Assembly: GCA_016212295.1 (NCBI GenBank) | Contig: JACRGO010000052.1 | Location: forward strand, 1 to 19,465 | Direction of reading: 5' to 3' | Length of the DNA stretch: 19,465 nucleotides | Source of the DNA: Nitrospinota bacterium | GTDB taxonomy: Bacteria; Nitrospinota; Nitrospinia; JACRGO01 | Part shown: positions 979 to 17,511 of the stretch, in pieces | Position numbering within the stretch: the stretch's first letter is position 1 | Layout of the letters: each line of letters begins with the position of its first letter | The notes under the pieces: model-generated | Database searches by the model: none | Told to the model about the DNA's origin: nothing | Seen by the model: the letters and a program-made list of their open reading frames with translations, nothing else | Program-made: the position numbers and the translations under genes

Positions 979-990
979 TTTTAATAAATC

Positions 991-1057
991 GAATAAGTAT
1001 CTCCGCATGTGAAGAAACATTGCGCCTTTTTTGAAAATTTCAAATATTTTTGGCTAG
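991..1057. repeat. Dispersed repeat module, copy 1 of a long inverted pair
   Basis: Positions 1015-1057 (aaacattgcgcc ... ttttggctag) are the exact reverse complement of 8352-8394, 43 bases without mismatch by eye. The adjacent 994-1013 (taagtatctccgcatgtgaa) also matches the complement of 8395-8414 with one difference. The two copies lie 7.3 kb apart in opposite orientation and bracket the RCC1, slt and hisD genes. The module is AT-rich and sits in the gap between the ferritin-like gene and the RCC1 gene. Confidence 0.85.
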
Positions 1058-1127
1058 ATTTTACAAAAATCGTTCTTCGCCGCAACGTTAACCAGCTTTA
1101 ACCACTTTTCACGTCAAGGAGCGCCCA

Positions 1128-4100
1128 ATGAAAAAAAACCATCCTACGCCGCTTGTTTTTACCTTTGCCGCCTTGACACTCTTTTTGTTCTCCCTTTATT
1201 CCCCAACCGCCCAAGGGCTTGAAAAAGGCGTCCCGGCGGCGGCTTGCGCGCCGGAGATATTCATTCATCCAAAAGACAGAAACGTCGGGTATCCGGCGGG
1301 CAAGGCCTCTTTTAATATCCAGAACGAGGGCTGCGGCGCGCTGGAGTGGACCGCCGAGATCCACTATGGGACTGATTGGATCACTGTGGATTCAGGCGCA
1401 TCCGGCTCTGGTAAAGGCGATATAGTTGTTTCTTTTCCTGAAAATTCCAGCACAGGCGCAATGACGCGCCTTGGCATAATCAAGGTAACAGCCAAGGGAG
1501 CTTCCAAGGCCGAATACGGGGCCATCAGGCAGTTCAACAAGATAACTCCTGAAAGTTCAGGGGACGCAACCCCGCCCTCCACCACCGCCTCAATCACCAG
1601 CGGAAGCTATTCCACAGTCCAGACAGTGGCCTTGTCATGCGCGGACGAAGCCGGAGGCTCAGGTTGTTACCAGATATTTTACACAACTGACGGGACAGAG
1701 CCCGGCCTCTCCTCCCCGATTTATACCGCTCCCATACCCATCCAGTCAGGCGCGACCCTGAAATTTTACAGCATGGATTATTCCGGGAACAGTGAGACGG
1801 TGAAGACGGAGACATACACCATCACCGCGAGTATTACTGACACTATTCCGCCCAAGACCACGGCCTCTCCATCCGGCGCAGGGTACGGCCAGGCCCAGAC
1901 AGTGGCCCTTGCCTGCGCGGACAACGAGGGAGGGTCAGGGTGTTCCAATATTTACTACACCACGGACGGGACTGAGCCGGATATTTCCTCCCTTGTTTAC
2001 TCATCCCCCATTTCCGTCTCTTCTTCAATGTCCGCGCGGTTTTTCAGCATTGATAATGCCGGGAACCGGGAGGATGTCCAGACATCTGCCTATACCATAG
2101 GGACCGTGGCGGTTGAGCCTGCCATCGCAACCGGGGTTTATCATTCAGTTGCCCTGAAAAATAACGGCACTGTATGGACCTGGGGAGCTAATGGCTTCGG
2201 CCAGTTAGGGGACGGGACAACCGACAGGAAATCAGTCCCTGCCCAGGTCAGCGGCCTGTCCGGCGTGTCAGCGGTCTCGGCTGGGGGCTGGCATGCAGTT
2301 GCCATGAAGAATGACGGCACGATATGGGCTTGGGGATCCAATGGCTACGGCCAATTGGGGGCTGAGGGAATCGGGATGAGCCTTGTCCCTCGCCATGTCG
2401 AGGGCATCTCTGACGTGGCTGCCGTCTCCGCTGGAGAATTCCATACGGTTGCCCTGAAAAATGACGGCACTGTATGGGCTTGGGGCTACAATTACGATGG
2501 TCGCTTAGGAGACGGGACAACAACGGAGAGGTTCACCCCTGTCCAGGTCAGCGGCTTATCAGGCGTGTCCGCTGTCTCGGCTGGAGGAGGGCATACCGTA
2601 GCCTTGAAGAACGACGGCACTGTATGGGCTTGGGGAAAGAATGACAAGGGTCAATTGGGGGACGGGACAACAACGGACAGGCCGGCCCCGGTCCGCGCCA
2701 AGGGCCTCTCGGACGTTTCCGCTATAGCCGCTGGAAATAACTACACCCTCGCCTTGAAGAAAAACGGCACTGTATGGGCCTGGGGAAACGGCGGCCAGTT
2801 GGGAAACGGGACGAATAAAGACAAGAGTACGCCTGTCAAACTCAAGGGCCTCTCAAGCGCGTCCGCTGTCTCGGCTGGAAGCTACCATGCTGCCGCCATG
2901 AAAAAGGACGGCACGGTATGGACATGGGGAAGGAACGTGGAAGGCCAGTTGGGGGACGGGACAACAACGGACAGGTTCACCCCTGTACAGGCCAAGGGCC
3001 TCTCCAGCGTGTCCGCTGTCTCGGCTGGAGGCTGGCATACCGTTGCCATGAAGAGTGACGGCACGATCCGGGCCTGGGGACTTAACGACTACGGCCAGTT
3101 GGGGAACGGGACGGATAAGTACAGGCTTACCCCTGTACAGGCAAGAAACCTCTCCGGCGTTTCTTCAGTCGAAGCCGGCGATTGGCATTCAGTTGCCTTG
3201 AAGAGCGACGGCACTGTATGGGCATGGGGAAAGAATGACTACGGCCAATTGGGGGACGGGACAACCAATAACAGGCTTGTCCCTGTCCAGGTCAGCGGCC
3301 TCTCCGGCGTGTCCGCTGTGTCCGCTGGAAATAACCATACAGTAGCCTTGAAAAGTGATGGAACGTTATGGGCATGGGGGCTTAATATCTATGGTCAGTT
3401 AGGGGACGGAACAACCATTGACAGCCCAATCCCTGTGCGGGTGAAGAGTCTTTCGGGTTTGTCCGCCATTAACGCCGGAAACTACCATACATTAGCCTTG
3501 AAGAGCGACGGCACTGTATGGGCATGGGGAAGGAACGAGGAAGGCCAGTTGGGGGACGGGACAACTGATTGGAGGCGTTCCCCTGTCCAGGTCAGCGGCC
3601 TCTCCGGCGTGTCCGCCATCTCCGCTGGAGGCTGGCATACGGTTGCCCTGAAGAGCAACGGCACTGTATGGGCGTGGGGGCTTAACGACTACGGCCAGTT
3701 GGGGGACGGGACAACCAGCAACAGGCTTGTCCCGGTACAAGCAAAGGGCCTATCCGGCGTGTCCGTCATCAACGCTGGAGATTTGCACACGGCTGCCGTG
3801 AAGAGCGGCGGCGCGGTCTGGTCCTGGGGAAAGAATGACAAGGGCCAATTAGGGGAGGGGACAACCTCGGATAGCGCCACCCCTGTCCGGGTCAAGGGTC
3901 TCCTTAGCGTGTCCGCCATCGACGCTGAGCATAGCCACACAGTTGCCCTGAAGACGGACGGCACTTACTGGGCATGGGGGGCCAATGATTACGGCCAGTT
4001 GGGGGACGGGACAACCACGAACAGCCCCACCCCTGTGCAGGTCAAGAACCTCTCCGGCGTGTCCGCCATCGAGGCCGGACATAATCATACAGTTGCCCTT

Positions 4101-4214
4101 AAGAGTGACGGCACGGTCTGGGCATGGGGAGATAACAGCAGCGGCCAGTTGGGTGATGGCTCCAAATCATGGGCCGCTGGCCCGGTCAGGGTCAAATCCC
4201 TGAAGTTGAAGTAG
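1128..4214 (+). CDS. Secreted protein with CHB/HEX-type modules and 14 RCC1 repeats
   Basis: This 1028-residue protein starts after a good ribosome binding site (aaggag, 1115-1120). Residues 1-30 form a signal peptide. Residues 42-125 look like a BACON/Ig-like beta domain. Residues 146-232 and 237-323 are two copies of a chitobiase/hexosaminidase C-terminal-type module with the YTTDGTEP motif and paired cysteines. From residue 336 to the end there are 14 RCC1 repeats of about 50 residues, each of the form H-x-VALK-x-DGTVWAWG-x-N-x-x-GQLGDGTT. Repeats 2 and 5 are the most divergent, and repeat 5 is two residues short. RCC1 domains fold as seven-bladed propellers, so 14 repeats fit two propellers. 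The repeats are also very similar at DNA level, which suggests recent duplication or gene conversion. It probably acts at the cell surface in binding or adhesion; no catalytic residues are visible and no C-terminal anchor is seen. Confidence 0.9.
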   Translation: MKKNHPTPLVFTFAALTLFLFSLYSPTAQGLEKGVPAAACAPEIFIHPKDRNVGYPAGKASFNIQNEGCGALEWTAEIHYGTDWITVDSGASGSGKGDIVVSFPENSSTGAMTRLGIIKVTAKGASKAEYGAIRQFNKITPESSGDATPPSTTASITSGSYSTVQTVALSCADEAGGSGCYQIFYTTDGTEPGLSSPIYTAPIPIQSGATLKFYSMDYSGNSETVKTETYTITASITDTIPPKTTASPSGAGYGQAQTVALACADNEGGSGCSNIYYTTDGTEPDISSLVYSSPISVSSSMSARFFSIDNAGNREDVQTSAYTIGTVAVEPAIATGVYHSVALKNNGTVWTWGANGFGQLGDGTTDRKSVPAQVSGLSGVSAVSAGGWHAVAMKNDGTIWAWGSNGYGQLGAEGIGMSLVPRHVEGISDVAAVSAGEFHTVALKNDGTVWAWGYNYDGRLGDGTTTERFTPVQVSGLSGVSAVSAGGGHTVALKNDGTVWAWGKNDKGQLGDGTTTDRPAPVRAKGLSDVSAIAAGNNYTLALKKNGTVWAWGNGGQLGNGTNKDKSTPVKLKGLSSASAVSAGSYHAAAMKKDGTVWTWGRNVEGQLGDGTTTDRFTPVQAKGLSSVSAVSAGGWHTVAMKSDGTIRAWGLNDYGQLGNGTDKYRLTPVQARNLSGVSSVEAGDWHSVALKSDGTVWAWGKNDYGQLGDGTTNNRLVPVQVSGLSGVSAVSAGNNHTVALKSDGTLWAWGLNIYGQLGDGTTIDSPIPVRVKSLSGLSAINAGNYHTLALKSDGTVWAWGRNEEGQLGDGTTDWRRSPVQVSGLSGVSAISAGGWHTVALKSNGTVWAWGLNDYGQLGDGTTSNRLVPVQAKGLSGVSVINAGDLHTAAVKSGGAVWSWGKNDKGQLGEGTTSDSATPVRVKGLLSVSAIDAEHSHTVALKTDGTYWAWGANDYGQLGDGTTTNSPTPVQVKNLSGVSAIEAGHNHTVALKSDGTVWAWGDNSSGQLGDGSKSWAAGPVRVKSLKLK

Positions 4215-4389: not shown

Positions 4390-4645
4390 AATGAAATTGT
4401 TTTGGACATTCAGTAATTGTAATTTGAAATTTATTGTATAGGAATTTCCATTTTTTTCGCTTATAAATCAACGAGATGCTAAATGCAGAAGAAGAAAAAA
4501 CTGAACGTCCAACATCGAACATCGAACGCCCAACATCGAAGTAAGAAAAATTCGTTTTACGTTTTAAATCCTTTCTTCCTTTTTCGACGTTCAATGTTGG
4601 ATGTTCGATGTTCAATTCTTTAAAGTCCGCCCGAAGGGCGTTAAG
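4390..4645. repeat. Mosaic of dispersed repeat modules between RCC1 gene and slt
   Basis: Several modules recur elsewhere in the window. 4396-4426 matches the complement of 17102-17132 with about three differences. 4442-4467 (aatttccatttttttcgctt and onward) matches the complement of 8324-8350. 4504-4545 and 4583-4616 are arrays of the gaacatcgaac/ccaacatcgaa unit in opposite orientation, able to form a large imperfect hairpin. 4621-4645 (taaagtccgcccgaagggcg and onward) is the complement of 8199-8223 with one mismatch. The last module contains the palindrome cgcccgaagggcg. No gene is present in 4215-4674. Confidence 0.85.
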
Positions 4646-4674
4646 TTCATTCGTTTCCCTGATCCCTGTCCCCC

Positions 4675-6894
4675 GTGAACTATCCAACGAATTTAAAGTT
4701 CCTCCTGCTCCTGGTTCTATTTTTTTTCCCTCTCACTGTTGCCTCCGAAACCGGCGCCGGGAATTCCGGCTTTCAAAAGGCGTCTGAGGCCATCCGCTCC
4801 GGCGAATTCCAATCTGCCCTGGCGCTCCTGGAAAAATTCCCGGCGGACACAAAGGGGCTGGAGCGCGACCGGGTCCTCTTTCTTACCGGACTCTCACTAA
4901 TGGGCCTCAAGAAATATGAGGAGGCCAAGGCGTCCTTCAAGGAAATACCGGCGGATTATCCCCTCCAGGACTACGTGGAGTGGAACCTGCTCTTGTGCGA
5001 CTACAACTCAGGGAACCATCCCGGCGTAATACAGGGGGCCTCCCGTTTTTTCTCCAGCCAGCCCAATAGCAGGCTCCTGCCCGGCGTCCGCTCACTTCAA
5101 GTGAAAAGCCATATCGCGATAAAGGAGTGGGACAAGGCCCTGGAAATCTTGAAACCGCTGCTGAAGACCGGGGAAAAAGACACGGACGCCCCGGAGGCGT
5201 TTCAGCTTTACCACGAGGTCTTGCTCGAACAAAAAAAAATCCTGGACGCTTATAAAACCCTGCAAGACCTTTATTGCTATTTTCCCAATAGCCCGGAGGG
5301 GGCAAGGTCCAGGGAGAAGATGAAGCCAATAGAAGAAAAGAAGGGCCTTTCCCTGCCCCCGCTGGATATCATTAAACTTTTCACTAGATGGACAAGGCTC
5401 ATGGACCAAGGGGGATATGAAACCGTCATTCAGGAAAGCGACGGCATGGTTTCTGATCCAAAGCTTCCCAAGGGGCTCCATGAAAAACTCCTCATGCTGC
5501 GGGGAAATGCTCTCCGCCATTTAAAGGATTACTCCCAGGCATTGGACACTTACAAGGAATATCCGCGGAAATATCCAAATGGCCCGGACGCCCCGGAAAG
5601 CCTGTACTGGACCGCTTATATAAATTGGAACATCGGGAAACTGGACGAGGCTGAGGACGTTTACGGCCAGATAAAAAAGAAGTTTCCAAAAAGCGAGTGG
5701 ACCGTTCCAGCCCGTTTCGTAATCGCAGGGGTGATGGAAAACCGGAAGGATTTTGACAAGGCGCTGGCCTATTACCAGGAGATACTTGAAATCGCCACCG
5801 ACGAACAACATGTCGAAAAAGCCGCGTGGAAGATCGCGTGGATACATTACCAAATGAAGGAATACGACAAGTCCCTGGACCGGTTCAAGAAGGCCGTCGG
5901 CAAATTTCCTCCCTTCGAAAAGGAAAAGGCCCTCTTTTGGGCGGCGCGCTGCGCGGAGCGGTTGAACAAGCCGGAGGAAACCTCCGGGTTGCTGGAAGAC
6001 CTTTTCAAGACCCACTACCATGGGTTCTATATGTTTCTTGGCAGGGAGGTTTTCGGCGGGAAAAAAAACGCCGATCCGTTGAAAATCGAACCCGCGGGCG
6101 TTGCCGCTGATACCCAGCCTGACTCATTCGCGTTTCAGGAATTCAAAAAACCCGGCCTCTCCACCAGCGCCGCCTTCCATCTGGACAGGGCCGTGGAATT
6201 GACTGAGGCCGCGCTGTCCGATGACGCCTTGAAGGAATTCAGGGACGTGTACAAGGAGATTGACAAGAAGAAGCTGGATGAACTGATGTGGCTGGGACAA
6301 CTGTATTATCAGGCCGGGGCCTATGCCCAACTCATTTCCATGATGAACAGCTTCCTGCTTACCGCATCGCCTAATGAACGCACCGGACTCCCGGACCTCT
6401 TTTGGAGACTCTACTATCCCCCGGCTTATTTGGATGTTGTGGCGAAGGCCTCGGCCAGGCACGGCGTGGACCCGTTCCTGGTCCTCGGACTCATGAGACA
6501 GGAGAGTTCCTTCGACCGGAAATCTCTCTCCTCGGCGGGCGCCATGGGGTTGATGCAGTTGATGCCCCATACCGGGGAGAAGGTCTTTAAAAAAGTGTAT
6601 AATGCAGGGACGTTTTCCAAGGCGATGCTTTACGACACGGAACTCAACATTGAACTTGGCGTCAGCCACCTTGCGGAACTGATCCAGGAAAACGGCGGAA
6701 ACATAGTGGACGTCCTCGCGGGGTATAACGCCGGCATGAGCAAGGCGGCGGACTGGAAGAAAAGGTTCCAGGAATACACGGGAGAGGAATTCATAGAGAT
6801 GATATCTTACGGGGAGACAAGGAATTACATCAAGAAGGTATTGCGGAATTATTATAACTATAAGAGACTTTACGGGAAAGGAAACAGCGGTTGA
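4675..6894 (+). CDS. slt: Soluble lytic murein transglycosylase with TPR-like N-terminus
   Basis: This 739-residue protein begins with GTG, chosen because it is followed at once by a signal peptide (lysine, then LLLLVLFFFPLTVAS). No strong ribosome binding site is visible. Residues ~30-560 are helical TPR-like repeats, seen for example around KDYSQALDTYKEYPRKYPNG and the YQEILEIA region. The C-terminal SLT domain spans about 590-735: catalytic glutamate E610 in LMRQESSF, then SAGAMGLMQLMP, then GYNAG at 683-687, and a final YGETRNYIKKVLRNYY. Enzymes of this type cleave peptidoglycan glycan strands between MurNAc and GlcNAc, leaving 1,6-anhydro ends, in the periplasm. The stop overlaps the hisD start by one base (TGATG), which implies translational coupling to an unrelated biosynthetic gene. 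Confidence 0.93.
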   Translation: MNYPTNLKFLLLLVLFFFPLTVASETGAGNSGFQKASEAIRSGEFQSALALLEKFPADTKGLERDRVLFLTGLSLMGLKKYEEAKASFKEIPADYPLQDYVEWNLLLCDYNSGNHPGVIQGASRFFSSQPNSRLLPGVRSLQVKSHIAIKEWDKALEILKPLLKTGEKDTDAPEAFQLYHEVLLEQKKILDAYKTLQDLYCYFPNSPEGARSREKMKPIEEKKGLSLPPLDIIKLFTRWTRLMDQGGYETVIQESDGMVSDPKLPKGLHEKLLMLRGNALRHLKDYSQALDTYKEYPRKYPNGPDAPESLYWTAYINWNIGKLDEAEDVYGQIKKKFPKSEWTVPARFVIAGVMENRKDFDKALAYYQEILEIATDEQHVEKAAWKIAWIHYQMKEYDKSLDRFKKAVGKFPPFEKEKALFWAARCAERLNKPEETSGLLEDLFKTHYHGFYMFLGREVFGGKKNADPLKIEPAGVAADTQPDSFAFQEFKKPGLSTSAAFHLDRAVELTEAALSDDALKEFRDVYKEIDKKKLDELMWLGQLYYQAGAYAQLISMMNSFLLTASPNERTGLPDLFWRLYYPPAYLDVVAKASARHGVDPFLVLGLMRQESSFDRKSLSSAGAMGLMQLMPHTGEKVFKKVYNAGTFSKAMLYDTELNIELGVSHLAELIQENGGNIVDVLAGYNAGMSKAADWKKRFQEYTGEEFIEMISYGETRNYIKKVLRNYYNYKRLYGKGNSG

Positions 6895-8198
6895 TGAAAA
6901 TTTTCAGCTTCAATTCAAAGGGCTTTGATTCCGCCTTGCGAAAGGCAATCGACAGGACCGGCTTCCTGGCCCAGGCCAGGATCCAGGAACAGGTCCTCAA
7001 GATCATCCACGACGTCAGGAAAACCGGCGACCTCGGCCTTGTGCGCTATACAAGGAAATTCGACCGCTGGCGCCCGGTCCCGGAAACGTTGAAAGTCACG
7101 CCGGAAGAAATTGAGTCGGCCTGCCGTGCCGTCAGCCCCGCCTCCGTGAAAATGCTCAAAGCAGCGGCGAGCAGGATACGCCTGTTCCACGAGCGCCAGA
7201 AGGAGTCAACCTGGAACTACAAGGATTCCGGCGGTAATCTCCTTGGCCAGATGATCACCCCGATGGAAAAGGTTGGGCTTTACATTCCAGGCGGTAAAGC
7301 GGTTTATCCATCCACTGTCCTGATGAACGCCATTCCCGCCAGGGTGGCCGGGGTGGAGAGGATCATCGCCGTGTCCCCGGCAATGGACGGAGAACTTAAC
7401 CCGCATATCCTGGCCGCTGCGCGCGTAGCCGGGATAAGCGAGATTTATAAAGTCGGCGGCGCGCAGGCGATTGCCGCCCTGGCCTTCGGCACGGCCACGG
7501 TCCCGGAAGTGGACAAGATAGTTGGTCCAGGCAATATCTACGTGGCCGAGGCGAAAAGGGCGGTGTACGGGAAGGTGGATATTGATTCCATCGCCGGACC
7601 AAGCGAGATATTGGTCCTGGCGGATGATTCAGGCAATCCTGAATTCATCGCAGCCGACCTTCTTTCCCAGGCAGAGCATGACGAGATGGCTTCTTGTGTT
7701 CTCGTGACCCCGTCCGGGCCGCTGGCTAAAGCGGTACAGGTCCAGTTGAAGGCGCGGTTGGCGGAATTAAGCCGCCGCTCCATAGCGGAAAAATCCATAA
7801 GGTCGAACGGAAGGATTTTCGTCGTGAAGGACATGGACATGGCGGCGGAGATTTCAAACCGCTTCGCGCCGGAGCACCTGGAGTTGGCCGTGCGCTATCC
7901 GTTTAAGGTCCTTAAGAAAATCAGGCACGCGGGCGCGGTGTTCCTTGGACATTACACGCCGGAGGCCCTTGGGGATTATCTGGCCGGACCCAACCACGTG
8001 CTTCCGACCGGGGGCACGGCGCGGTTTTTCTCTCCCCTGGGCGTGTATGATTTCCTGAAACGGACCAGTCTCATTTCCTTTTCAGAAAAGGGACTCAGAA
8101 AGGTGGGCGGAATCGTGATGGATTTAGCCGCAATGGAAGGGCTCGAGGCCCACGGCAAGGCCGTGGAGGTTAGGCTCAGGCAAGGAGGCAAGCATTAA
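6894..8198 (+). CDS. hisD: Histidinol dehydrogenase
   Basis: This protein catalyses the last two steps of histidine synthesis, oxidising L-histidinol to L-histidine with two NAD+. It has 434 residues from the ATG at 6894; a TTG one codon earlier is possible but less likely. All landmark residues are present with spacing as in E. coli HisD: zinc ligands Q259 and H262 (SQAEHDE), D361 (GDYLAGPNH) and H420 (LEAHGKAVE), and the catalytic pair E327-H328 (FAPEHLE). The cofactor region GPGNIYVAEAKR is also intact, as is SIAGPSEILV. A weak aagga sequence lies 14 bases before the ATG, inside slt. No other his genes are nearby, so this gene has been separated from the usual his operon. It should be cytoplasmic and active. 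Confidence 0.98.
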   Translation: MKIFSFNSKGFDSALRKAIDRTGFLAQARIQEQVLKIIHDVRKTGDLGLVRYTRKFDRWRPVPETLKVTPEEIESACRAVSPASVKMLKAAASRIRLFHERQKESTWNYKDSGGNLLGQMITPMEKVGLYIPGGKAVYPSTVLMNAIPARVAGVERIIAVSPAMDGELNPHILAAARVAGISEIYKVGGAQAIAALAFGTATVPEVDKIVGPGNIYVAEAKRAVYGKVDIDSIAGPSEILVLADDSGNPEFIAADLLSQAEHDEMASCVLVTPSGPLAKAVQVQLKARLAELSRRSIAEKSIRSNGRIFVVKDMDMAAEISNRFAPEHLELAVRYPFKVLKKIRHAGAVFLGHYTPEALGDYLAGPNHVLPTGGTARFFSPLGVYDFLKRTSLISFSEKGLRKVGGIVMDLAAMEGLEAHGKAVEVRLRQGGKH

Positions 8199-8350
8199 CT
8201 TAACACCCTTCGGGCGGACTTTAAAAAATTAACATCGAACATTGAACATCGAACGTAGAAATATGTCATGAGTCATGGGTGGTGAGTCATGCGCTCATGA
8301 CGCACTCCCTTCCCTACTTCGATGATTCATAAGCGAAAAAAATGGAAATT
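8199..8350. repeat. Mosaic repeat block after hisD
   Basis: In order this block holds: 8199-8223, the complement of 4621-4645 with one mismatch and a cccttcggg hairpin core; 8227-8256, a gaacatcgaac-type array; 8264-8303, a catgagtcatgggtggtgag module with a near-identical inverted copy at 13671-13710; and 8324-8350, matching the complement of 4442-4467. It starts immediately at the hisD stop codon. The gap lies between convergent genes, so the hairpins may help end transcription from both sides, although no long T-run is seen. Confidence 0.85.
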
Positions 8351-8351
8351 A

Positions 8352-8556
8352 CTAGCCAAAAATATTTGAAATTTTCAAAAAAGGCGCAATGTTTTTCACC
8401 TGCGGAGATACTTACTCGCCTATTCCGAAAATTTATCTCTTTTTTTGCCACGAAACGTTTTGCTTTTTGCCGCCTTTTTGAAATTTCAAATATTTTTGGC
8501 TCATTGCCGAAATGAAATGTGCGAGATAAATTCTCAGAATAGGCGAGTAAGTATCT
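8352..8556. repeat. Interleaved inverted repeats between convergent hisD and export gene
   Basis: 8352-8394 is the exact reverse complement of 1015-1057. A shorter, diverged inverted copy of its distal part lies at 8471-8501. 8405-8439 pairs with 8523-8556 as an inverted repeat with about two or three mismatches over 34 bases. The arms are in the order A, B, A', B', so they interleave instead of nesting. This suggests the block arose by insertion or rearrangement of more than one module. A minus-strand frame through this block is not credible as a gene. Confidence 0.8.
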
Positions 8557-8563
8557 ATTACGA

Positions 8564-10336
8564 TCAAGGCTGCACTTGAGGGAAGCTGACTGAAGCGCCG
8601 GGGTTGGATGGCGGGAATCCAGAATCGAAGCGCATACCGCCACCGGTGGAGTACATGTCCCTGTAAAGACCGGGATACATGAGGTTGGCAAGGATAGGCG
8701 CCAGTTTGAGCATGAAATGCGAAAGGGAGGCTATCTTGCTTCTTGGGACATAAATCACGTCTCCGTGCTCCAGCGTGACATTTTGGGAAAGGTCTTTGTC
8801 CTTCAGGAATCTATCCAGGTCCGCCCGCAAGACATTCGGCTTGCGCATATCCCCTCGCAGCACTACAACATCGCTTAACACCGCGTCCCGCGTGTACCCT
8901 TCAGCCTCGGCGATTGCGTCAGACACGGTGACTCTTTCCCCCTTCAGGTCAACTTGGCCGGACCGCCCAACCTCTCCAAAACAAGCCACGGAAATGATGT
9001 TTTGTTTCGGAATGTAAAGCACGTCCCCATCCAGCATTTCAAGTCCCGCGTACTTTTCAGGGGTCTTTAAAAATTCAACGAAATCAACAGGGAGTTTCCC
9101 TTCGTTGCGGATGATGAACGATTTGTTCATGAATGCCTCAGGCGTAAACCCGCCAGCCATTGCCACGGCCTCCATTACGCCCATCTTTTTATTGAACTCA
9201 TATAACTTTGGATATGTCACCCCGCCGGCGACATAAAATCTTTTCTTGGTGAGCCTGTCTTCCTCGAATATATCCAATTTCGGCACGAACACAATATCCG
9301 CGTCTTCTATCTGGACGTTCAGTTCCGTTTTCTTTTTATGAAGAATGTCCCTTATATTCACCGGGATAACTTCCTTCCCTCTCAGAATCCTGGTCGCGGC
9401 GTCATCCGCCTCGTTTTTAATTCCCCCGGCGAGGGCTATGGCCTCTACCGCTGAGATGTCCTTTTTAAACTCATACCGCCCGGGATAGGTGACGTCACCC
9501 AAAACGAAAACCTTTTTAGACGCGGTTTTTTCCGACTGGAAAATCGGCAGTGTCGGCACATTTATGGTGTCTCCGCCCTCCAGAAATATATTCTGGCTTA
9601 TATCGCCCTGGTATACGGCCTTGCCCAAATCCACTCTGTAGACCTTCCCCTTCCGCGTAATTTCAACACGTGATAGATTCGCCTTCTGGGTATAACCTCC
9701 GGCTTTCAGTATGATTTCGAGAAGCCTGGTCTCCCCGGTAAGCGGGTAGGTCCCTGGACCGGAATAGCCGGAACCCGTGTTCATTCTTTCAATTTCGCCT
9801 ATCAGGGTGACTTTTTTGGAATTATAACCCGTGACCAGAACATCTATCCTTGGGCTCTTGACATAATCCTCAAGTCTTTTGGTCAGGGTCGTGTCCACCT
9901 GCGTCGCGGTCAGGCCGGCGGCCGGCAAATCCTCAACAAAGGAAAATGAAATTTTCCCGTTTTGCTGCACAAGGATTTTGGATATTTCCGGCTTGGTTTT
10001 AAGCCAAAGAGTAATGGTCAGCTCATCCGTCGGACCTATTATGTATTCCGGGAAGCCAAGGACCGAACTGCCCGCCTGATTTTCCTTGTAATGCGGAATA
10101 GTCTCTTCCGTTACTGGAATGCCGTAGGATTCTTCCTCGATAATATCCAGCGGTTTTTGATTTTGCATTATCTGCTGTTGCGGGGCCAGCCGGCTGGAGT
10201 CTATGGCCCTTGGCGGAGGGGAGGAATCTGCTTTGCCCCCCGATCCGGCCCCGCCTTGCTCCTTGGCGAAACCCGGCGGCGCAGGAAATAGAAGCATCGC
10301 GCAAAGAAGAAAAACCAACGGTCTTTTTGCTTTCAT
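8564..10336 (-). CDS. Wza-like polysaccharide export protein with four SLBB domains
   Basis: This 590-residue protein has a signal peptide (residues 1-24, probable cleavage after PGFA; no lipobox) and a proline/serine-rich linker. A Poly_export domain follows at about 95-180, with YIIGPTDELTITLW and the later VKSPRIDVLVTGY. Four SLBB-type domains lie at about 175-262, 274-353, 365-445 and 447-532, each with a GDV/GEV strand, an AIALAGG-like turn and a final GD-(V/T)-(L/I)-x-(V/I)-P. A helical segment at 535-560 (ASLSHFMLKLAPILANLMY) could be the membrane-spanning C-terminal helix, as in Wza. Members of this family form outer-membrane channels for capsule or exopolysaccharide. It stands alone here: no Wzc kinase, glycosyltransferase or flippase is in the window, so its partner genes are elsewhere. 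A promoter is visible at 10395-10422. Confidence 0.92.
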   Translation of the reverse strand: MKAKRPLVFLLCAMLLFPAPPGFAKEQGGAGSGGKADSSPPPRAIDSSRLAPQQQIMQNQKPLDIIEEESYGIPVTEETIPHYKENQAGSSVLGFPEYIIGPTDELTITLWLKTKPEISKILVQQNGKISFSFVEDLPAAGLTATQVDTTLTKRLEDYVKSPRIDVLVTGYNSKKVTLIGEIERMNTGSGYSGPGTYPLTGETRLLEIILKAGGYTQKANLSRVEITRKGKVYRVDLGKAVYQGDISQNIFLEGGDTINVPTLPIFQSEKTASKKVFVLGDVTYPGRYEFKKDISAVEAIALAGGIKNEADDAATRILRGKEVIPVNIRDILHKKKTELNVQIEDADIVFVPKLDIFEEDRLTKKRFYVAGGVTYPKLYEFNKKMGVMEAVAMAGGFTPEAFMNKSFIIRNEGKLPVDFVEFLKTPEKYAGLEMLDGDVLYIPKQNIISVACFGEVGRSGQVDLKGERVTVSDAIAEAEGYTRDAVLSDVVVLRGDMRKPNVLRADLDRFLKDKDLSQNVTLEHGDVIYVPRSKIASLSHFMLKLAPILANLMYPGLYRDMYSTGGGMRFDSGFPPSNPGASVSFPQVQP

Positions 10337-10379
10337 GTTTTTTCTGAAAAATTGGAAAAAAAATAATAGAACGTAAATT

Positions 10380-10419
10380 ACGCTGATGTCATAGATTATC
10401 GCAGATAAAAAATCAGCGT
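10380..10419. promoter_or_regulatory. Possible operator: 8-base inverted repeat around the promoter
   Basis: ACGCTGAT (10380-10387) and ATCAGCGT (10412-10419) are perfect inverted half-sites 24 bases apart. One half overlaps the -35 box and the other lies at the predicted transcription start, an arrangement that suits a repressor site. Alternatively they form a weak hairpin. The binding protein is unknown. Confidence 0.35.
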
Positions 10420-10422
10420 CAA
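10395..10422 (-). promoter_or_regulatory. Predicted sigma-70 promoter of the export gene
   Basis: On the minus strand a -35 box TTGACG (10417-10422) and a -10 box GATAAT (10395-10400) are separated by 16 bases. This would start transcription near 10388 and give a leader of about 50 bases before the ATG at 10336. Confidence 0.55.
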
Positions 10423-10530
10423 AATGCCGTCATTTCAACCTGAAAAGAACATGCAAAATTGTAGAATACACATTTCATGCCATTTAATTGCATGGGAAGG
10501 GGCCGTTTATGGCGAAGAGATAGGAATTGC

Positions 10531-10705
10531 GGATTTGGGATTTAAGGACTTAGAAATTAAAAATATACCGCAGAGACACAGAGACGCTGAGAAAAACATA
10601 TATTGAAATTAAAGAATTTTTTTTCTGCGCCACTGCGTCTCCGCGGTTAATAAAATGGTATTTTAGTATTTGCCAAGTCCCTAAATCCGAAACCCTAAAT
10701 AAAAA
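10531..10705. repeat. Long imperfect inverted repeat (cgcagagacacagagacgc family)
   Basis: The left arm (about 10531-10600; ggatttgggatttaaggac, then accgcagagacacagagac) is matched in reverse complement by the right arm (about 10620-10705; ctgcgccactgcgtctccgc, then ccctaaatccgaaacccta). The arms are diverged but the order of sub-motifs is conserved. The 402 bases between the export gene and the HTH gene hold only this repeat and the promoter. A 60-codon plus-strand frame running into it is not supported as a gene. Confidence 0.75.
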
Positions 10706-10738
10706 CCTCACTTGGCTCCGGCTTGGGGCCGGGTTAGG

Positions 10739-11302
10739 TTAGTTTGTTAGTGAGAGTATCTTCTCCTGAATTCCTGAACGAGGGCTATATTTCCCGCCTT
10801 CCCACCCGGCAACAGCCCCTGTGCTGACGTTCAATCGCCTGGCGAAATCCTTCTGGGAGAGTTTCAGTTTTTTCCTGGTCTTTTTAATTTGCGATGGTTT
10901 CAGCCCGGCTTGCTGGTTTGGTGAATCTCCATTTTTTTTCGTGGAAACCCCTGCCACGGCAAGGGAGGTTATTCTTTCCTGGACCCTGGGCCGAGGAAGA
11001 AATCTCCCGCGTTCCCAGGCAACAACCGCGCCAAGGCTCACGTCCAATTGTCTGGCGAAATCCTTCCGGGAGAGTTTCAGTTTTTTCCTGATCTTTTTGA
11101 TACCAGAGGGGCTGAGTCCTCTTTCGTTGCCGATAGGCGCCGCCCTTCCCCGTCTTCTCTTTGCTCCCTTGGCGAGCCCCGTTTTTGAAACGGAATTTTT
11201 AAATTCGCTTATTTCACCCTTAAGACTTTTCATGGCAGCGCCGACTTCTTTTTTCACCAAGCGCGCGATTTCGGATTTCAAAATAGCAGTTATGCTCTTC
11301 AT
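10739..11302 (-). CDS. DNA-binding protein with two tandem XRE-type HTH domains
   Basis: This 187-residue basic protein has three parts. Residues 1-40 form a charged helix (LKSEIARLVKKEV) that may be a coiled coil. Residues 47-55 are a basic KRRRGRAAP patch resembling an AT-hook core. Two HTH copies follow at 62-114 and 133-185, each with the pattern KLKLS-x-KDFAR-x-L-x-VS-x-GAV-x-x-WE. About 35 of 53 aligned residues are identical between the copies. The DNA repeats with a 213-base offset (for example 10839 and 11052), so the second HTH is an internal duplication. A good ribosome binding site (agagagg) precedes the ATG. It probably binds DNA as a regulator or nucleoid protein with one subunit contacting two sites. 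Its target is unknown; the inverted half-sites at 10380-10419 are candidates only by proximity. Confidence 0.8.
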   Translation of the reverse strand: MKSITAILKSEIARLVKKEVGAAMKSLKGEISEFKNSVSKTGLAKGAKRRRGRAAPIGNERGLSPSGIKKIRKKLKLSRKDFARQLDVSLGAVVAWERGRFLPRPRVQERITSLAVAGVSTKKNGDSPNQQAGLKPSQIKKTRKKLKLSQKDFARRLNVSTGAVAGWEGGKYSPRSGIQEKILSLTN

Positions 11303-11337
11303 GGCCGCCTCTCTTTTAAAAAAGTTTAATTTTTCAT

Positions 11338-11436
11338 GGGCACTTCCAGAAACTCATTTACATCCCCCTAGTCCCCTTTATTAAGGGGGAATTAGATGGC
11401 GAAAAGCTTTCTTTTAGTGAGTTTCTGGAAGTGCCC
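11338..11436. mobile_element. MITE-like element with perfect 19-base terminal inverted repeats
   Basis: gggcacttccagaaactca (11338-11356) and its exact reverse complement (11418-11436) bound a 99-base element with no coding capacity. The interior (11358-11397) contains a catccccct...agggggaatta palindrome that also occurs at 14718-14755. The right terminus lies inside the shikimate kinase frame. I see no clear target-site duplication, so it may be old, or the duplication may be very short. The parent transposon is not in the window. Confidence 0.65.
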
Positions 11437-11938
11437 TTATATAAGAAATAATCCTGTCCACGCATGAATCCGCCGGCTCATTGGATGTATCGACGGTAAA
11501 ATCAGCCGCAGCCTTGTAAATGGGGGATCTTTCCTCCAGGACCTTTTTTTGTTCTTCCAAAAAAGACATGCCCTCCTTCAAAGGAGGGCGGTTGGGATCG
11601 GACTGAATGCGCTCCACGATTTTTTCCAGGGCCGCTATGAGCAGTATCAGTTTGCCGTTTTTTTTTAAATGGCCGACGTTTTGCCCGCGCAGGACAATCC
11701 CTCCGCCCGTGTCTATCACGAAGTTCTCCAGGCCCGAAACCTCCTCCGCGACCGAGGACTCCAGGTCCCTGAAATATTGCCATCCATGTTTTTCCACGAT
11801 CGCCGGTATGGACATCCCCGCCTTTTCCGTTATTTTCTCATCCGTGCTTATATACAATTTGCCTGTTCTTTCAGCGAGGAGTTTTCCTATGGCGCTTTTC
11901 CCGCATCCCCTATAGCCTATCAGCACGATGTTCATCAT
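11414..11938 (-). CDS. aroK: Shikimate kinase
   Basis: This kinase phosphorylates shikimate with ATP in the chorismate pathway, in the cytoplasm. The 174-residue protein has the Walker A loop GYRGCGKSA near residues 8-16, the shikimate-binding aspartate in STDEKI, the arginine in FRDLE, the DTGGG loop, the lid motif NRPPL and the adenine-side arginine in RSPIYKAAAD. All expected active-site elements are there. The start overlaps the stop of the upstream 551-residue gene by four bases (ATGA), with a second ATG one codon later, so the two are translationally coupled. The last seven or so residues (ALPETH and stop) are encoded by the terminal repeat of the MITE-like element, so the native C-terminus seems to have been replaced without touching the core. 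aroK and aroL names are used interchangeably for this family. Confidence 0.95.
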   Translation of the reverse strand: MMNIVLIGYRGCGKSAIGKLLAERTGKLYISTDEKITEKAGMSIPAIVEKHGWQYFRDLESSVAEEVSGLENFVIDTGGGIVLRGQNVGHLKKNGKLILLIAALEKIVERIQSDPNRPPLKEGMSFLEEQKKVLEERSPIYKAAADFTVDTSNEPADSCVDRIISYIRALPETH

Positions 11939-13590
11939 CCGAGTATTCTCTGAATGCTTTGCAGAAAAACAGAGGGCATGAGCAAGGCTTCCCGCTCTCT
12001 TTTTTCGTTATAAAAACGTCTTATGGCGTCTCGCACGCCATCAACATGGCTCTCCTTGCCAAAGCAATTAACTATAATGCCCAATTCTTTTTTATAATAA
12101 CACAGAAAACCCGCCAGCGTGAATATGTCATTGGCTATAAAAACGATCTGGCGGTTTAAAAGGCATGGCTCCTGGCGAAAATTATTAATAAGTTCTCTTG
12201 CCGCCCTTAAAAGAAAGCTCATCATGAGGTCTATTCCGCCGCCCTTTTCCATGCCTTCCGCCATGGCCGATTTGAACGCCCTGGGCATGGCCGAGGTTTC
12301 CGGGTCCTCAAGGCTCATGGTCCCATTGAATCCCAGCGGCGCCGCTAATATGTTAATAATCTCACCATAATTTTCAACCGACATATTCAGGGCCGCCGAC
12401 AAATCAATACTGGCCGCCTTGGTTCTCTTGCTTAGGAAAATGAAGAAGGGAATGAATATGTCCCTGATGGTTACGGCGCCGGGCGCTTCGAAATACGATT
12501 CAACTGGATTGGGGCTGAAAAGGGACTGCCTGGTCCGGCCCATTAATGAAAAGAACGGGGCAAGCTTATATACCATGGCCGCGTCGTCGATGGACATAAA
12601 GGATTCAAAATTTTGAAACAATTCCTCCAGCCTGGGAACATGCATATTTCTTTCCAGCTCAGGATAGGATATGAGGCCGGCCATTTCAAACCTTTCCGTC
12701 CATTGGATAAGCGCCCTGATCTCCTGATGGAAGGCCCTCCCGTGGTCAATGGTGAATAAAGTGGCCGCCATGTGAAACCATTCCCTTGCCGAATCCAGGA
12801 ACAAAGGATTGCTTTGGATATGGCCGGTTAATTCATAATATAGGGCGGGCCACTTTCCCTTTAATTCCAGAAGGGCCTTTTTATCGGTTTCAAGATAGCG
12901 GGAGGCGCGTTCCACGAAACCTTCAAAAAATCCGTAAAAGACGTTTTGGCTTTTTTTAGAGTCAAGAAAGGCAAGGGAATCGCTTGCCGGAGGAGAGGGG
13001 ACAGTCAGGCATAAAAAATTCCCGCTGGCCGTCGAAGGGGCGTCAATGTCCTTTTTTGCCTTTTGATTGAGATCAACAATAAAAATCGCAGGGAACCTTT
13101 CTCCCCCGGGAGTTTCCCCTTTTTCGATTTTTTTCAGCGCCCGAAGTTCGGTTTCCCCCAGATTTTCAATGTTCATTATGATGGGAGGTAGAGTTCCGTT
13201 TTCCACTTCGGGAAAATACTGGGCCGGGGGAACGCCATGAAGGAGCTTCAGAAAATCCTCGGCCAGGTCCGCGTGGCCGGTCCCTGAAGCGGACTGGAGA
13301 AAAACCGGAATGCCTGTGACCGCGGCCCCTAGGAGAAGCTCGGTCACGCCTACGCATAAAACCTCCTTTCCCGCTATTGTCCCTTTTCCTTCGCAATCGT
13401 AGACATGGAATTGGCACTGGCCGCTTTCCTTGGGAAAAAAGGAAAAGAGCGGGATTGGAAGAATTTTTGTGTTTGCCGCGCCTGAAAAAGCATCGAGGAA
13501 GGAAAGGGTAAGAATCCCCAGGAATTTTTCTTCACCGAAATGTTTTTTCAAGGCGATATGCATTTCTTCAGCATTTTCTGGTTTAGCCAT
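11935..13590 (-). CDS. Unknown 551-residue protein, possible degenerate AAA+ module
   Basis: I do not recognise this protein as a named family. It has no signal peptide or clear transmembrane segment and is probably cytoplasmic. By eye, residues 94-118 (GIPVFLQSASGTGHADLAED, then FLKLLHG) resemble the P-loop of sigma-54-activator AAA+ domains, with the lysine replaced by H106. Residues 132-158 (NGTLPPIIMNIENLGETELR, then ALKKIEKG) resemble the GGTLFLDEI Walker B region of the same proteins with the acidic pair lost. RFPAIFIVDLNQ (165-176) resembles the following sensor strand. Residues 220-551 are helical with no motif that I know; an IDHGRAFHQE stretch is at 281-290. If correct, this is a non-hydrolysing AAA+ relative. 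A ribosome binding site (aaggggcaagg) precedes the ATG. It is coupled to shikimate kinase, which implies co-expression but not necessarily a shared function. Confidence 0.75.
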   Translation of the reverse strand: MAKPENAEEMHIALKKHFGEEKFLGILTLSFLDAFSGAANTKILPIPLFSFFPKESGQCQFHVYDCEGKGTIAGKEVLCVGVTELLLGAAVTGIPVFLQSASGTGHADLAEDFLKLLHGVPPAQYFPEVENGTLPPIIMNIENLGETELRALKKIEKGETPGGERFPAIFIVDLNQKAKKDIDAPSTASGNFLCLTVPSPPASDSLAFLDSKKSQNVFYGFFEGFVERASRYLETDKKALLELKGKWPALYYELTGHIQSNPLFLDSAREWFHMAATLFTIDHGRAFHQEIRALIQWTERFEMAGLISYPELERNMHVPRLEELFQNFESFMSIDDAAMVYKLAPFFSLMGRTRQSLFSPNPVESYFEAPGAVTIRDIFIPFFIFLSKRTKAASIDLSAALNMSVENYGEIINILAAPLGFNGTMSLEDPETSAMPRAFKSAMAEGMEKGGGIDLMMSFLLRAARELINNFRQEPCLLNRQIVFIANDIFTLAGFLCYYKKELGIIVNCFGKESHVDGVRDAIRRFYNEKREREALLMPSVFLQSIQRILG

Positions 13591-13616
13591 CCTTGCCCCT
13601 TAAAGAGGGAAAACAG

Positions 13617-13712
13617 AACGTCGAACATTGAACATTGAACGTCCAACATCGAAGTAAGGAAGTGCGTCATGTGTCATGAGCGCATGGCTCACCACCCATG
13701 ACTCATGACATA
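13617..13712. repeat. Dispersed repeat block upstream of the 551-residue gene
   Basis: 13617-13656 is an array of gaacattgaac/gtccaacatcgaa units ending in ccaacatcgaagtaag, the same ending as at 4529-4545. 13656-13712 is the reverse complement of the module at 8262-8318, near-identical except for one substitution, a 7-base duplication (tgtcatg) and small indels. The block fills the whole gap between the two minus-strand genes. Confidence 0.85.
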
Positions 13713-13718
13713 CACGGT

Positions 13719-14642
13719 TTAAAAGCTCTTCGCGCATCTGAAGCCAAAATTTTCAAGACCAAGGTTTTTGTTGACAACGTGGCGGTAAGAAAGATCCGCC
13801 TGTTCCGGCAGGCTCCTCCACGATCCTCCCTTCAGGACGCCGTCCCCTTTTGGAATTTCGTTTTCCTTGCCTGGAAGGTAAGGGGAAGAGACCCATTCCC
13901 ATGCGTTTCCAATCATGTCCTTTACTCCGTATCCGCTTGCGCCCAGTGGAAAGGAACCAACCGGGGACCCCGCCGGATAACCGTCTTCCTCTCCAAAAAT
14001 ATTGGCCCTTCCGGGCTCATAATGATCGCCCCAAGGCCAAGGGGACGCTTTATCGCCCTGGGCCGCCTTGAGCCATTCCAGTTCGCTTGGAAGCCTTTTC
14101 CCGGCCCATTGGCAGTATCCGGAAGCCAGCTCGAAGGAAACATGGCCCGCGGCGCAATCAGGGCATGAAGCCGCGCGCTCCGTTTTTTTTAAATTTTTTT
14201 CACTTAGAAAAACGTTGAATTGCTCATAACTGATTTCTAATTTGTCTATATAATATTGATACACCTCCACCTTTATCACATCCTTGCCCTGTTTCTCCTT
14301 TTGGGAGGAAGGGGAAGGCGGAAATAAAGGGCCGGTGGGAATAAGGACCATTTCAGACTTGTCTTGCGGGTTTTGAACCACCGGGAGAATTACCTTTGTC
14401 CGCAAAGGCGGGGCCGACGGCGGCGGCGGAGGCTCTATGCGCTTCTCCTCCTGGATTTTTGGTGGTTCCTTCATGGCTTTAGGCGGGGATTCGGCTTGGG
14501 GACGCTCAACGCGCTGAGTTTCTACGTGTGGAGTTTCTACGCGCGGGGCCTCAACGTGCGGAGGCTTGAGGGCCGGGGGGCCAGCGCAGGAGCCCAGAAA
14601 AAAAAACAAAAAAATAACGGGAATGGAATGTGTCTTTTGCAT
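13719..14642 (-). CDS. Lipoprotein with SUMF1/FGE-like domain lacking catalytic cysteines
   Basis: From the ATG at 14642 this is a 307-residue protein; a TTG at 14657 would add five residues, and neither start has a strong ribosome binding site. The N-terminus is a lipoprotein signal with lipobox LGSC. A proline-rich linker follows with about five degenerate PHVET/PRVEA hexamer units and then a run of prolines. The C-terminal ~200 residues show the formylglycine-generating-enzyme fold: GYCQWAGKRLPSELEWLKAA, WPWGD, SGYGVKDMIGNAWEWVSSPY, VLKGGSW and a closing GFRC. True FGE enzymes have a cysteine pair after GGSW; here the segment reads SLPEQADLSYRH, without cysteine. It is therefore probably a non-catalytic binding or structural relative on the periplasmic side. 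A CPDC motif sits just before the GYCQWAG region. Confidence 0.85.
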   Translation of the reverse strand: MQKTHSIPVIFLFFFLGSCAGPPALKPPHVEAPRVETPHVETQRVERPQAESPPKAMKEPPKIQEEKRIEPPPPPSAPPLRTKVILPVVQNPQDKSEMVLIPTGPLFPPSPSSQKEKQGKDVIKVEVYQYYIDKLEISYEQFNVFLSEKNLKKTERAASCPDCAAGHVSFELASGYCQWAGKRLPSELEWLKAAQGDKASPWPWGDHYEPGRANIFGEEDGYPAGSPVGSFPLGASGYGVKDMIGNAWEWVSSPYLPGKENEIPKGDGVLKGGSWRSLPEQADLSYRHVVNKNLGLENFGFRCAKSF

Positions 14643-14716
14643 ATGTATTACGTTCAAAAATTGTAACCGTTCACAGGGTTGTCATGAAAAACCGGAGAAA
14701 GCCTCATCAGCTATTT

Positions 14717-14845
14717 TTTACATCCCCCTTAATCCCCCTTGCCAAGGGGGAATTAAAACAAAGCCCATTTAGGGGCGTTTTCCGTCCGTTAGGGGTGTTT
14801 TCCGCATTCCCCCTTACCAAAGGGGGACCAAGGGGGATGTGGTTT
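14717..14845. repeat. Inverted repeat pair of the catcccccttaatcccc family plus short tandem repeat
   Basis: tttacatcccccttaatccc (from 14717), with its aagggggaatta partner, is matched in reverse complement by 14806-14841 (ttcccccttaccaaaggggg, then accaagggggatg). Between the arms, ttaggggcgttttccg (14769-14784) repeats at 14789-14804 with one mismatch and a period of 20. The left arm also resembles 11358-11397 inside the MITE-like element. The gap 14658-15086 has no gene. Confidence 0.85.
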
Positions 14846-14954
14846 TCCCTGCAATTGAGCATGAAGCCGTTTTCCTCGTGATCTATTACTAAAATTTGCG
14901 TTTTAAACTTGAAATAAAACCGGCGTTGAATGCTTCAAGAAAAATTTATTTTGG

Positions 14955-14971
14955 TTGCGGCCGTGCCGCAA
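14955..14971. repeat. Perfect short hairpin upstream of the pheA promoter
   Basis: TTGCGGC-CGT-GCCGCAA forms a perfect 7-base stem with a 3-base loop. A TATAAT sequence follows at 14976-14981, but no good -35 box is at the right distance. It lies upstream of the stronger promoter at 15020-15048, so it is not an attenuator for transcripts from that promoter. It could be a protein-binding site. Confidence 0.4.
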
Positions 14972-15019
14972 GCAATATAATATACCAGAGAAGGTGAAAA
15001 ATTTAAAGCATTGAAATAT

Positions 15020-15048
15020 TTGCAAAACCGCTTTTTGTTTTCTATAAT
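15020..15048 (+). promoter_or_regulatory. Predicted sigma-70 promoter of pheA-tyrA
   Basis: TTGCAA (15020-15025) and a consensus TATAAT (15043-15048) are separated by the ideal 17 bases. Transcription would begin near 15055, about 32 bases before the pheA start. The leader is too short for a peptide-based attenuator. Confidence 0.7.
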
Positions 15049-15086
15049 GATTTATTTAAATCCAAAGAAAAGGTGGTTTCAATAAT

Positions 15087-16157
15087 TTGGGGAAAATAGA
15101 TGTTCTCCGTAAGGAAATCGATAAAATCGATGACAAGGTTTTAGAACTCCTTAGCAAAAGGGGTAATATAGCCCAAAAAATCGGGGAAGAAAAACTTAAG
15201 GCGAAATTGCATAATTTCCATTCGCCTTCCCGTGAATTAAAAATTTTTCAGCGGCTTTCCAAGCGCAACCAAGGCCCTTACCCGGATTCGGCCATCCAAG
15301 GCATTTTCCGGGAAATTTTCTCGGCGACCCTTCTATTGGAAAAACCCTTGAGGGTTGGATTTCTTGGGCCGGAAGCGACCTTCACCCACCTTGCCGCCCA
15401 AAAGAAATTCGGCAAATTCGCCCAGTTCGCGCCTTATAGGTCCATAGCGGACATATTCTCCGAGGTTGAAAAGGGGAATGTTGACTATGGGGTTGTCCCC
15501 ATGGAAAATTCCGTCGAAGGGGTAGTGGGTTATACCCTAGACCTTCTGGTGGATTCCCCCCTGAATATCATAGCGGAAATACCGCTGCCGGTGTCCCTTC
15601 ATTTTCTTACATCCCACGGCGACCCTTCCAGAATAAAAAAGATTTTTTCCCATCCTCACGCCATCGCGCAATGCAGGATGTGGATTGCAAAAAACTTCCC
15701 GCAAGCCGACGTCGAAAACGCTGAAAGCACCGCCGCCGCGGCCCAGATAGCCAGGGAGGATGAGTCCGTTGGCGCCCTTGCGAATGAAATCGCCGCTGAA
15801 ATGTACGGGTTGAAAGTCACAGGCCGGAGCATACAGGACTTGTCTCATAGCATGACCCGCTTTGTGGCCATCTCCCGTAAGGGGGTAGAAAAAAGCGGAA
15901 GGGACAAGACCTCCGTTGTTTTTTCAGTTCAGGACAAACCAGGCGCATTGGTTAAATGCCTGAAAATTTTGTCCAGGGACAATATCAACATGACCAAAAT
16001 AGAATCCAGGCCAGTTAAAAAAAGGGCATGGGAATATATCTTTTTCGTGGACCTTGATGGACACGCCGGAGCCGAGGTGATGAAAAAGGCGCTGGGGGAA
16101 ATAGAAAAGTTCTGCACCTTTTTCAAGGTCCTGGGCTCTTATCCGAAGGAGATATGA
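15087..16157 (+). CDS. pheA: Bifunctional chorismate mutase / prephenate dehydratase
   Basis: This enzyme converts chorismate to prephenate and then to phenylpyruvate, committing carbon to phenylalanine. It has 356 residues and a TTG start with aggtgg 10 bases upstream; no better ATG lies nearby. Residues 1-85 are the AroQ chorismate mutase, with R8 and R25 in LRKEIDKIDDKVLELLSKR and R49-E50. Residues 88-265 are the dehydratase: GFLGPEATFTH, VVPMENSVEGVV and the essential TRF motif at 257-259. Residues 275-352 are the ACT regulatory domain with GAL (286-288) and ESRP (306-309), the phenylalanine-binding signature, so feedback inhibition by phenylalanine is expected. The 3' end overlaps tyrA (ATGA), and the tyrA ribosome binding site lies inside the last codons of pheA. 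Confidence 0.97.
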   Translation: MGKIDVLRKEIDKIDDKVLELLSKRGNIAQKIGEEKLKAKLHNFHSPSRELKIFQRLSKRNQGPYPDSAIQGIFREIFSATLLLEKPLRVGFLGPEATFTHLAAQKKFGKFAQFAPYRSIADIFSEVEKGNVDYGVVPMENSVEGVVGYTLDLLVDSPLNIIAEIPLPVSLHFLTSHGDPSRIKKIFSHPHAIAQCRMWIAKNFPQADVENAESTAAAAQIAREDESVGALANEIAAEMYGLKVTGRSIQDLSHSMTRFVAISRKGVEKSGRDKTSVVFSVQDKPGALVKCLKILSRDNINMTKIESRPVKKRAWEYIFFVDLDGHAGAEVMKKALGEIEKFCTFFKVLGSYPKEI

Positions 16158-17017: not shown

Positions 17018-17067
17018 CTTTTTTCACGCGGATTTCATGGCGCGGCTTAGCAGCAAACAAAAGGAAA

Positions 17068-17215
17068 ACAAAATCCCAAATAACAAATTACAAATAAACT
17101 ACAAATCACAATTACTGAATGACCGAAACAATCCCATTTCCTTGTTTATTCTTTGTAATTTTGGTTATTGGGATTTATTTGTTATTTGGCAATTGAGATT
17201 TGAAATTTCATTATT
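17068..17215. repeat. AT-rich imperfect inverted repeat after tyrA
   Basis: 17068-17099 (acaaaatcccaaataacaaa and onward) is echoed in reverse complement by about 17152-17189 (ttttggttattgggatttat and onward). 17102-17132 is shared, inverted, with 4396-4426. The 70-codon frame across this block (from 17037) is built from the repeat and is not a gene. This block and the next fill the 494 bases between tyrA and rpsA. Confidence 0.75.
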
Positions 17216-17262
17216 TTCTCATATCCTTGAGCGAAAAGGAGGTGTGTAATATTTAAGTAGCG

Positions 17263-17470: not shown

Positions 17471-17511
17471 CACTAAGCGGCTATACATAAAAAATCGAAA
17501 GGAGAGTTTTA

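Follow-up and report, generated by a model that had tools for sequence, protein, structure and literature searches.

Fixed ends around differing hairpin cores: an intergenic repeat mosaic in a Nitrospinota genome

The intergenic gaps of this Nitrospinota genome are best explained, in a reading that we hold with middling confidence, as housing small non-autonomous elements, one kind of which (family A) would be copied by an HUH transposase acting in trans, most likely one of the IS91/Y2 rolling-circle type. The repeats themselves are genome-wide families. In the window, by which we mean the whole stretch of 19,465 nt analysed, every gap longer than ~100 bp contains repeats according to BLAST coverage. 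A sequence-only reading had named five modules here, and all of them were found where it had placed them or a few bases off: the hairpin CCCTTCGGGCGGAC at 8206 (+) and 4621 (-), GAACATCGAAC-type arrays at 4504, 4583 (-), 8227 and 13617, CATAAGCGAAAAAAATGG at 8328 (+) and 4448 (-), CATGAGTCATGGGTGGTGAG at 8267 (+) and 13688 (-), and AATTACTGAATG at 17110 (+) and 4407 (-). With each pattern read backwards as the control, an 803-kb sample of the same genome held 35 copies of the hairpin, 79 of the array, 19 of CATAAGCGAAAAAAATGG and 10 of CATGAGTCATGGGTGGTGAG, each against none reversed, and seven of AATTACTGAATG against one; genome-wide, the heptamer-array pattern occurs at 261 places, versus 0 in the reversed control. 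These counts exclude what the same reading had itself raised against its modules, namely that they might be random matches or occur in a few places only. The genome is a 3.74-Mb draft in 237 contigs, ~90% complete, with several contigs ending inside elements; about a quarter of it was read, in stretches chosen partly around repeats, and a single set of 77 genomes served as comparison for both class and phylum.

Family A: two ends and their cores

That the gaps form a mosaic and not one repeat family is borne out. The separate modules are real repeats, too, with the amendment that most of the words come from a single kind of element, in which they represent the left end, the core arm, the inner core and the right end. 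The 12-mer AATTACTGAATG belongs to a larger family of ~185 bp (window 17026-17217), and further repeat families at 990-1068, 8352-8556, 10548-10656, 14656-14896 and 17290-17477 form part of it as well. The features of the window are as follows.

990-1068, plus strand: family D fragment with its right end
4390-4435, minus strand: family B fragment; the family A copy sits where other copies enter the centre of B
4433-4648, plus strand: complete family A element (left end, GAACRTY-array core, right end); 13 near-full-length copies with sharp aligned ends, boundaries taken from the empty site of another copy
4433-4470, plus strand: family A left end, fixed, ATTGTATAGGAATTTCCATTTTTTTCGCTTATAAATCAA; matched at 65 genomic places with no more than one mismatch, against none for the reversed control
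4504-4540, plus strand: 5' arm of the core, degenerate GAACRTY heptamers with period 7
4582-4616, minus strand: 3' arm of the core, inverted heptamers (inverted repeat I9/I10)
4617-4648, plus strand: fixed right end of family A, hairpin CGCCCGAAGGGCG then TTAAGTTC; matched at 51 genomic places, against none for the reversed control; fold better than that of its shuffles (z -2.6)
8196-8351, minus strand: second copy of family A; right end directly adjoining the stop codon of hisD, half a core containing the inner CATGAGTCATGGG hairpin, left end cut short where it meets family D
8352-8556, minus strand: family D element, from AGATACTTACTCGCC... to ...AAATATTTTTGGCTAG
10548-10656, no strand assigned: CAGAG-word hairpin, elsewhere a core inside family D ends
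13603-13713, plus strand: truncated family A, with an array arm and the CATGAGTCATGGGTGGTGAG inner hairpin and without ends
14656-14896, no strand assigned: family C, outer arms GTAACCGTTCAC..., core CCCCCTTAATCCCCC
17026-17217, minus strand: family B (CAAATTA words), end module GGTTGCGGC..GCCGCGCCATG
17290-17477, no strand assigned: family F (CCGAAAC words, period 7)

Besides these repeats, the window holds a short open reading frame with two tandem HTH-like repeats that are 75% identical (10739-11302, minus strand).

What defines family A is the pair of ends. The left one is ATAGTATAGGAATTTCCATTTTT and the right one the hairpin CGCCCGAAGGGCG with TTAAGTTC (HMM pairing with CTTTAAAGTCCGCCCGAAGGGCGTTAAGTTC); the aligned copies have unlike termini at the two sides and no terminal inverted repeats. 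When folded against shuffles, the right-end hairpin stands out (z -2.6), and the left end forms no clear hairpin (z 0.06). For 55 of the 73 left ends collected, a right end lies at most 450 bp away, and the span from end to end runs from 135 to 350 bp. As HMM pairing of both ends revealed, what lies between this pair of ends varies, and the unrelated hairpin cores number nine or more. Some are inverted GAACRTY arrays, either plain or containing a GGGGCACGATGCATCGTGCCCT insert or CATGAGTCATGGGTGGTGAG as an inner hairpin; others consist of GTCATTG words, of CACGGATTA words, of a double hairpin (CCCCCTTGATCCCCC), of TTAGCGTCTCGATTAC or of CAGGAGTTAGGAGCCAGAATT; the cores TCATTCTGAAGGAGTGAAGCGAC, CGAATAACGAATATCGAAC and CGCAAAGAACGCAAAG were found with the left end only. 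The exchange also works the other way round, in that one core, CACGGATTA, lies inside both family A and family D ends. The latter (AGATACTTACTCGCC... and ...TTTCAAATATTTTTGGCTAG) are also found around CAGAG or CACGAAA cores, or with nothing between them, and no fewer than five cores lie next to a third end module, TTTTGGTTGCGGCGAAGCCGCGCCATG.

The cores have a style in common, not a sequence: autocorrelation was best at 7 nt (p <=0.005) in 9 of 18 core arms and at 8 to 10 nt in five, a descriptive result given that the arms were hand-picked. At one locus (L107, positions 1501-1760, G004 C48), a family A left end is followed by a short open reading frame bracketed by AACTACTCAGG and CCTGAGTAGTTAC inverted repeats, which is possibly another type of cargo. 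An interpretation of GTTAAGTT as an integron attC site was set aside because the left and the right end of family A do not form an inverted repeat with each other.

Insertion sites and nesting

Do these elements move? At one locus (L032/L120), a 1.1-kb segment is duplicated, and one copy carries the element while the other is without it. The alignment across the junction (105 bp, 95%) shows neither target duplication nor loss, and this single fully unambiguous empty site (n = 1) therefore sets the limits of the element at ATAG(TATAGG) and (GTTA)AGTTC. Insertions into the centre of family B and into the loops of two other hairpins agree with these limits. Target preference is on the left side only: the left flanks favour TAATTTA (AATTTA; p down to 4e-12), and the right flank is at background beyond +2. 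At five loci, a left end comes directly after another right end, with TTAAGTTC running into ATAGTATAGG or a close relative of that junction. Nested insertion, one possibility that the earlier reading had raised, was seen in the family B centre, in hairpin loops and in a triple nest, where family C lies within a CAGAG hairpin within family D ends (L348). The term MITE in its strict sense did not hold for family A, which has neither terminal inverted repeats nor a target duplication; in a test that concerns family A only, it does not qualify as the MITE of a DDE transposon on these same grounds.

Nearly all family A copies (41 of 43) are intergenic, and those examined displayed no orientation bias relative to genes. 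In a sister genome (L190), the gene order rubrerythrin-slt-hisD is kept and both the RCC1-like gene and the repeats at the two gaps are absent. In the window, this RCC1-type gene (1128-4214, between rubrerythrin and slt) encodes 1028 aa, has 150-bp repeats and is flanked on both sides by repeats. When arms were compared for covariation, those of one copy paired no better than those of different copies; in this test, whose power is low with copies so alike, there is therefore no sign that hairpins are maintained after insertion.

Candidate transposases and rival explanations

In search of the responsible enzyme, the Y1, TnpB, IS110 and Y2 genes of ~20 transposase loci were checked for family A ends. 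Among the loci inspected, no transposase gene lay between such ends (ATAGTATAGGAATTTCC and CGCCCGAAGGGCGTTAAGTTC), and only the Y2 surroundings gave a match to the left end. The sister genome has an undamaged gene for this Y2 transposase (L356, 822-2174), which includes an IS91 zinc domain; in the present genome, a remnant of such a gene is located ~700 bp away from one of the family A copies. On the 3' side of the gene, the Y2 element terminates in CTTG followed directly by ATAGGAATTTGCTTTTTT and then a long hairpin. This terminus, from the same genus, shares 16 of 18 bases with the left end of family A, a match equalled by 20 of 20,000 dinucleotide shuffles and weaker than that raw frequency suggests because ~20 transposase loci were inspected; a variant end from genomes of family f4 matches at 16/18 as well. 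IS91-type elements have no inverted termini, make no target duplication and select their target on one side, with CTTG/GTTC preferred. CTTG precedes the Y2 element in 18 of 23 cases, and 38 of 55 family A right ends finish in GTTC. Exact CTTG or GTTC is found at six of 73 family A left flanks (GTTC four, CTTG two). The right end of the Y2 element has no family A match: when a right-end HMM was run on the Y2 loci, its only hit was the family A copy nearby. A likeness noted by eye, CGCCGC..CTTGAATTTA upstream of the intact Y2 gene, proved unsupported. As a separate observation, seven loci of this genome carry ~12 one-ended IS91-type termini, CTTG followed by ATAGGAATTTGC and a long hairpin, whose downstream break points differ, as expected of one-ended rolling-circle transposition.

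Together, these data suggest the following scheme. The ends would be the parts recognised for movement and the middles interchangeable hairpins. An HUH single-strand transposase—proposed because family A lacks inverted termini and target duplications and shows its target preference on one side only—would be supplied in trans and copy the element, beginning at the left end and stopping at the right-end hairpin with TTAAGTTC, and would take along any hairpin between the ends. Nested and tandem elements would arise when the target is an AT-rich site or the end or loop of a different repeat, and decay would leave single modules behind. We infer the HUH/Y2 chemistry, the supply in trans and the exchange of cores by rolling-circle read-through; movement in trans by a Y2-like enzyme with rolling-circle capture of cores is the least supported step, because the Y2 right end is unmatched and most targets of family A read TTTA, ATTT or TTAA, the CTTG target of the Y2 element not being kept. 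The elements fit a PATE- or MITE-like description; we claim membership in neither IS91 nor IS200/IS605.

Alternatively, family A might descend from IS200/IS605 (Y1) and so be a PATE, with an IS200-type TnpA moving it in the form of a single-strand circle. Three traits listed for IS200/IS605—no inverted ends, no target duplication and a T-rich target with preference on the 5' side (PMC4227781)—are matched by family A, with its AT/T-rich target on the 5' side only. Of the subterminal palindromes listed for IS200/IS605 at both ends, family A has the one at the right end, while its left end does not fold better than shuffles; the right-end AAGTTC resembles the target AATTTA. We nevertheless consider this derivation unlikely: none of the Y1 loci in seven genomes (this one and six relatives) has family A ends, this genome yields no TnpB match, and the left end resembles a Y2 terminus instead. 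The sequence-only reading had proposed REP-like repeats and a search for a RAYT-type Y1 transposase acting from elsewhere in the genome. Two such Y1 (RAYT-like) genes are indeed present, and the repeats are intergenic, palindromic and high in copy number, but neither gene carries family A ends, and elements of 135-350 bp with unlike ends are no REP doublets. Moreover, a different REP family surrounds one of the two: the RAYT on contig C211 (~14,300-15,600) is flanked by its own GATTTGCAATCC palindromes and constitutes, with its REP palindromes GGATTTGCAATCC and GTTACAGGTTACAAACCTGTAAC, a separate repeat system. Movement of REP- or REPIN-like repeats by either RAYT is hence very improbable in our estimate, and what survives of the proposal is its general form: an enzyme acting in trans is likely, for which an IS91-type Y2 is a better candidate than the unsupported RAYT.

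The remaining explanations dispense with an enzyme. The repeats might work in place as RNA or DNA structures, for example as terminators or protein-binding sites, and be kept by selection, in line with their strong hairpins, their intergenic location and the single left ends that precede genes in family f4 genomes. Yet the missing orientation bias disfavours a terminator or regulatory role, and the arms pair no better within copies than between them, so that we judge this possibility very improbable. Hardly credible, finally, is that chance low-complexity matches, replication slippage alone or an assembly artefact produced the repeats. The arms are simple degenerate heptamers and several contigs do end inside elements; against this, the reversed controls for the array, left-end and right-end patterns are zero in this genome, unique flanks occur inside contigs, and the same left end recurs in further genera of the phylum. 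For the families taken together, chance and artefact are refuted, while slippage may explain the variation in arm length.

Heptamer words and related systems

Family A ends are lineage-bound and the words of the cores are not. The left end is present in seven of the 77 genomes and has no match in IMG/VR. In the sister genome it adjoins the CACGGATTA core, and in another family of the class a ACAGGATGA core. The array word, in turn, was found in at least 80 contig stretches of IMG/VR, versus 0 for the scrambled and 21 for the reversed pattern, which is itself a heptamer array; an opposite array lies nearby in 30 of 164 cases there (mostly one-sided) versus 58 of 90 here. In four genomes of family f6 the reversed control pattern matches real AAGYTAC heptamer arrays, so that further lineages of the phylum seem to use heptamer words of their own. 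A literature search with the array sequence returned unrelated subjects only. Heptamer repeats are also familiar from cyanobacteria, as STRR.

Compared to described systems, the closest are the PATEs and SMRs of Haloquadratum walsbyi (PMC3119063). The PATEs are transposase-free, lack inverted ends and target duplications and have inverted-repeat elements nested in them, all of which family A shares; their ends, however, derive from IS605-type elements, a descent that is only hypothetical for family A. The SMRs, which have inverted repeats and for which no enzyme is known, resemble our cores. Neither description (PMC3119063) includes cores made of heptamer words or a systematic exchange of cores from one end family to another. 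IS91/ISCR Y2 elements have two unlike ends, no duplication and a CTTG-flanked end resembling the family A left end, but family A is gene-free, sits mostly at AT-rich targets and has a right end for which the Y2 element offers no match. Repeats of the REP, REPIN and BIME kinds, with their RAYT, are likewise intergenic palindromes of high copy number that form mosaics and move in trans (PMC2817692, PMC3116915), whereas the elements here have unlike ends, measure 135-350 bp and show no link to the RAYT genes present. The TAACTGA heptamer repeats of Beggiatoaceae and cyanobacteria are scattered with no evident mechanism of transfer (PMC4679880). Like these and STRR, the arrays described here consist of degenerate 7-nt words, are intergenic and are spread over unrelated lineages; they differ in that they are paired in inverted orientation within mobile elements, by which they might be spread.

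Intergenic mosaics in drafts of uncultured bacteria usually go unexplained. Here, one resolves into a few ends and swappable cores, with one clean empty site, and such ends and such a site make mobility testable and the enzyme searchable. Elements of this kind may account for contig breaks in draft assemblies and offer a possible route for the movement of heptamer arrays, whose scatter had been noted without a mechanism (PMC4679880). More tentatively—we find the idea possible, if on balance doubtful—rolling-circle (IS91-like) ends might serve as a general capture device, in which fixed, lineage-specific ends exchange hairpin cores of heptamer words pooled across unrelated bacteria. If true, this would account for the mosaics of repeats as well as for the scattered occurrence of heptamer arrays.
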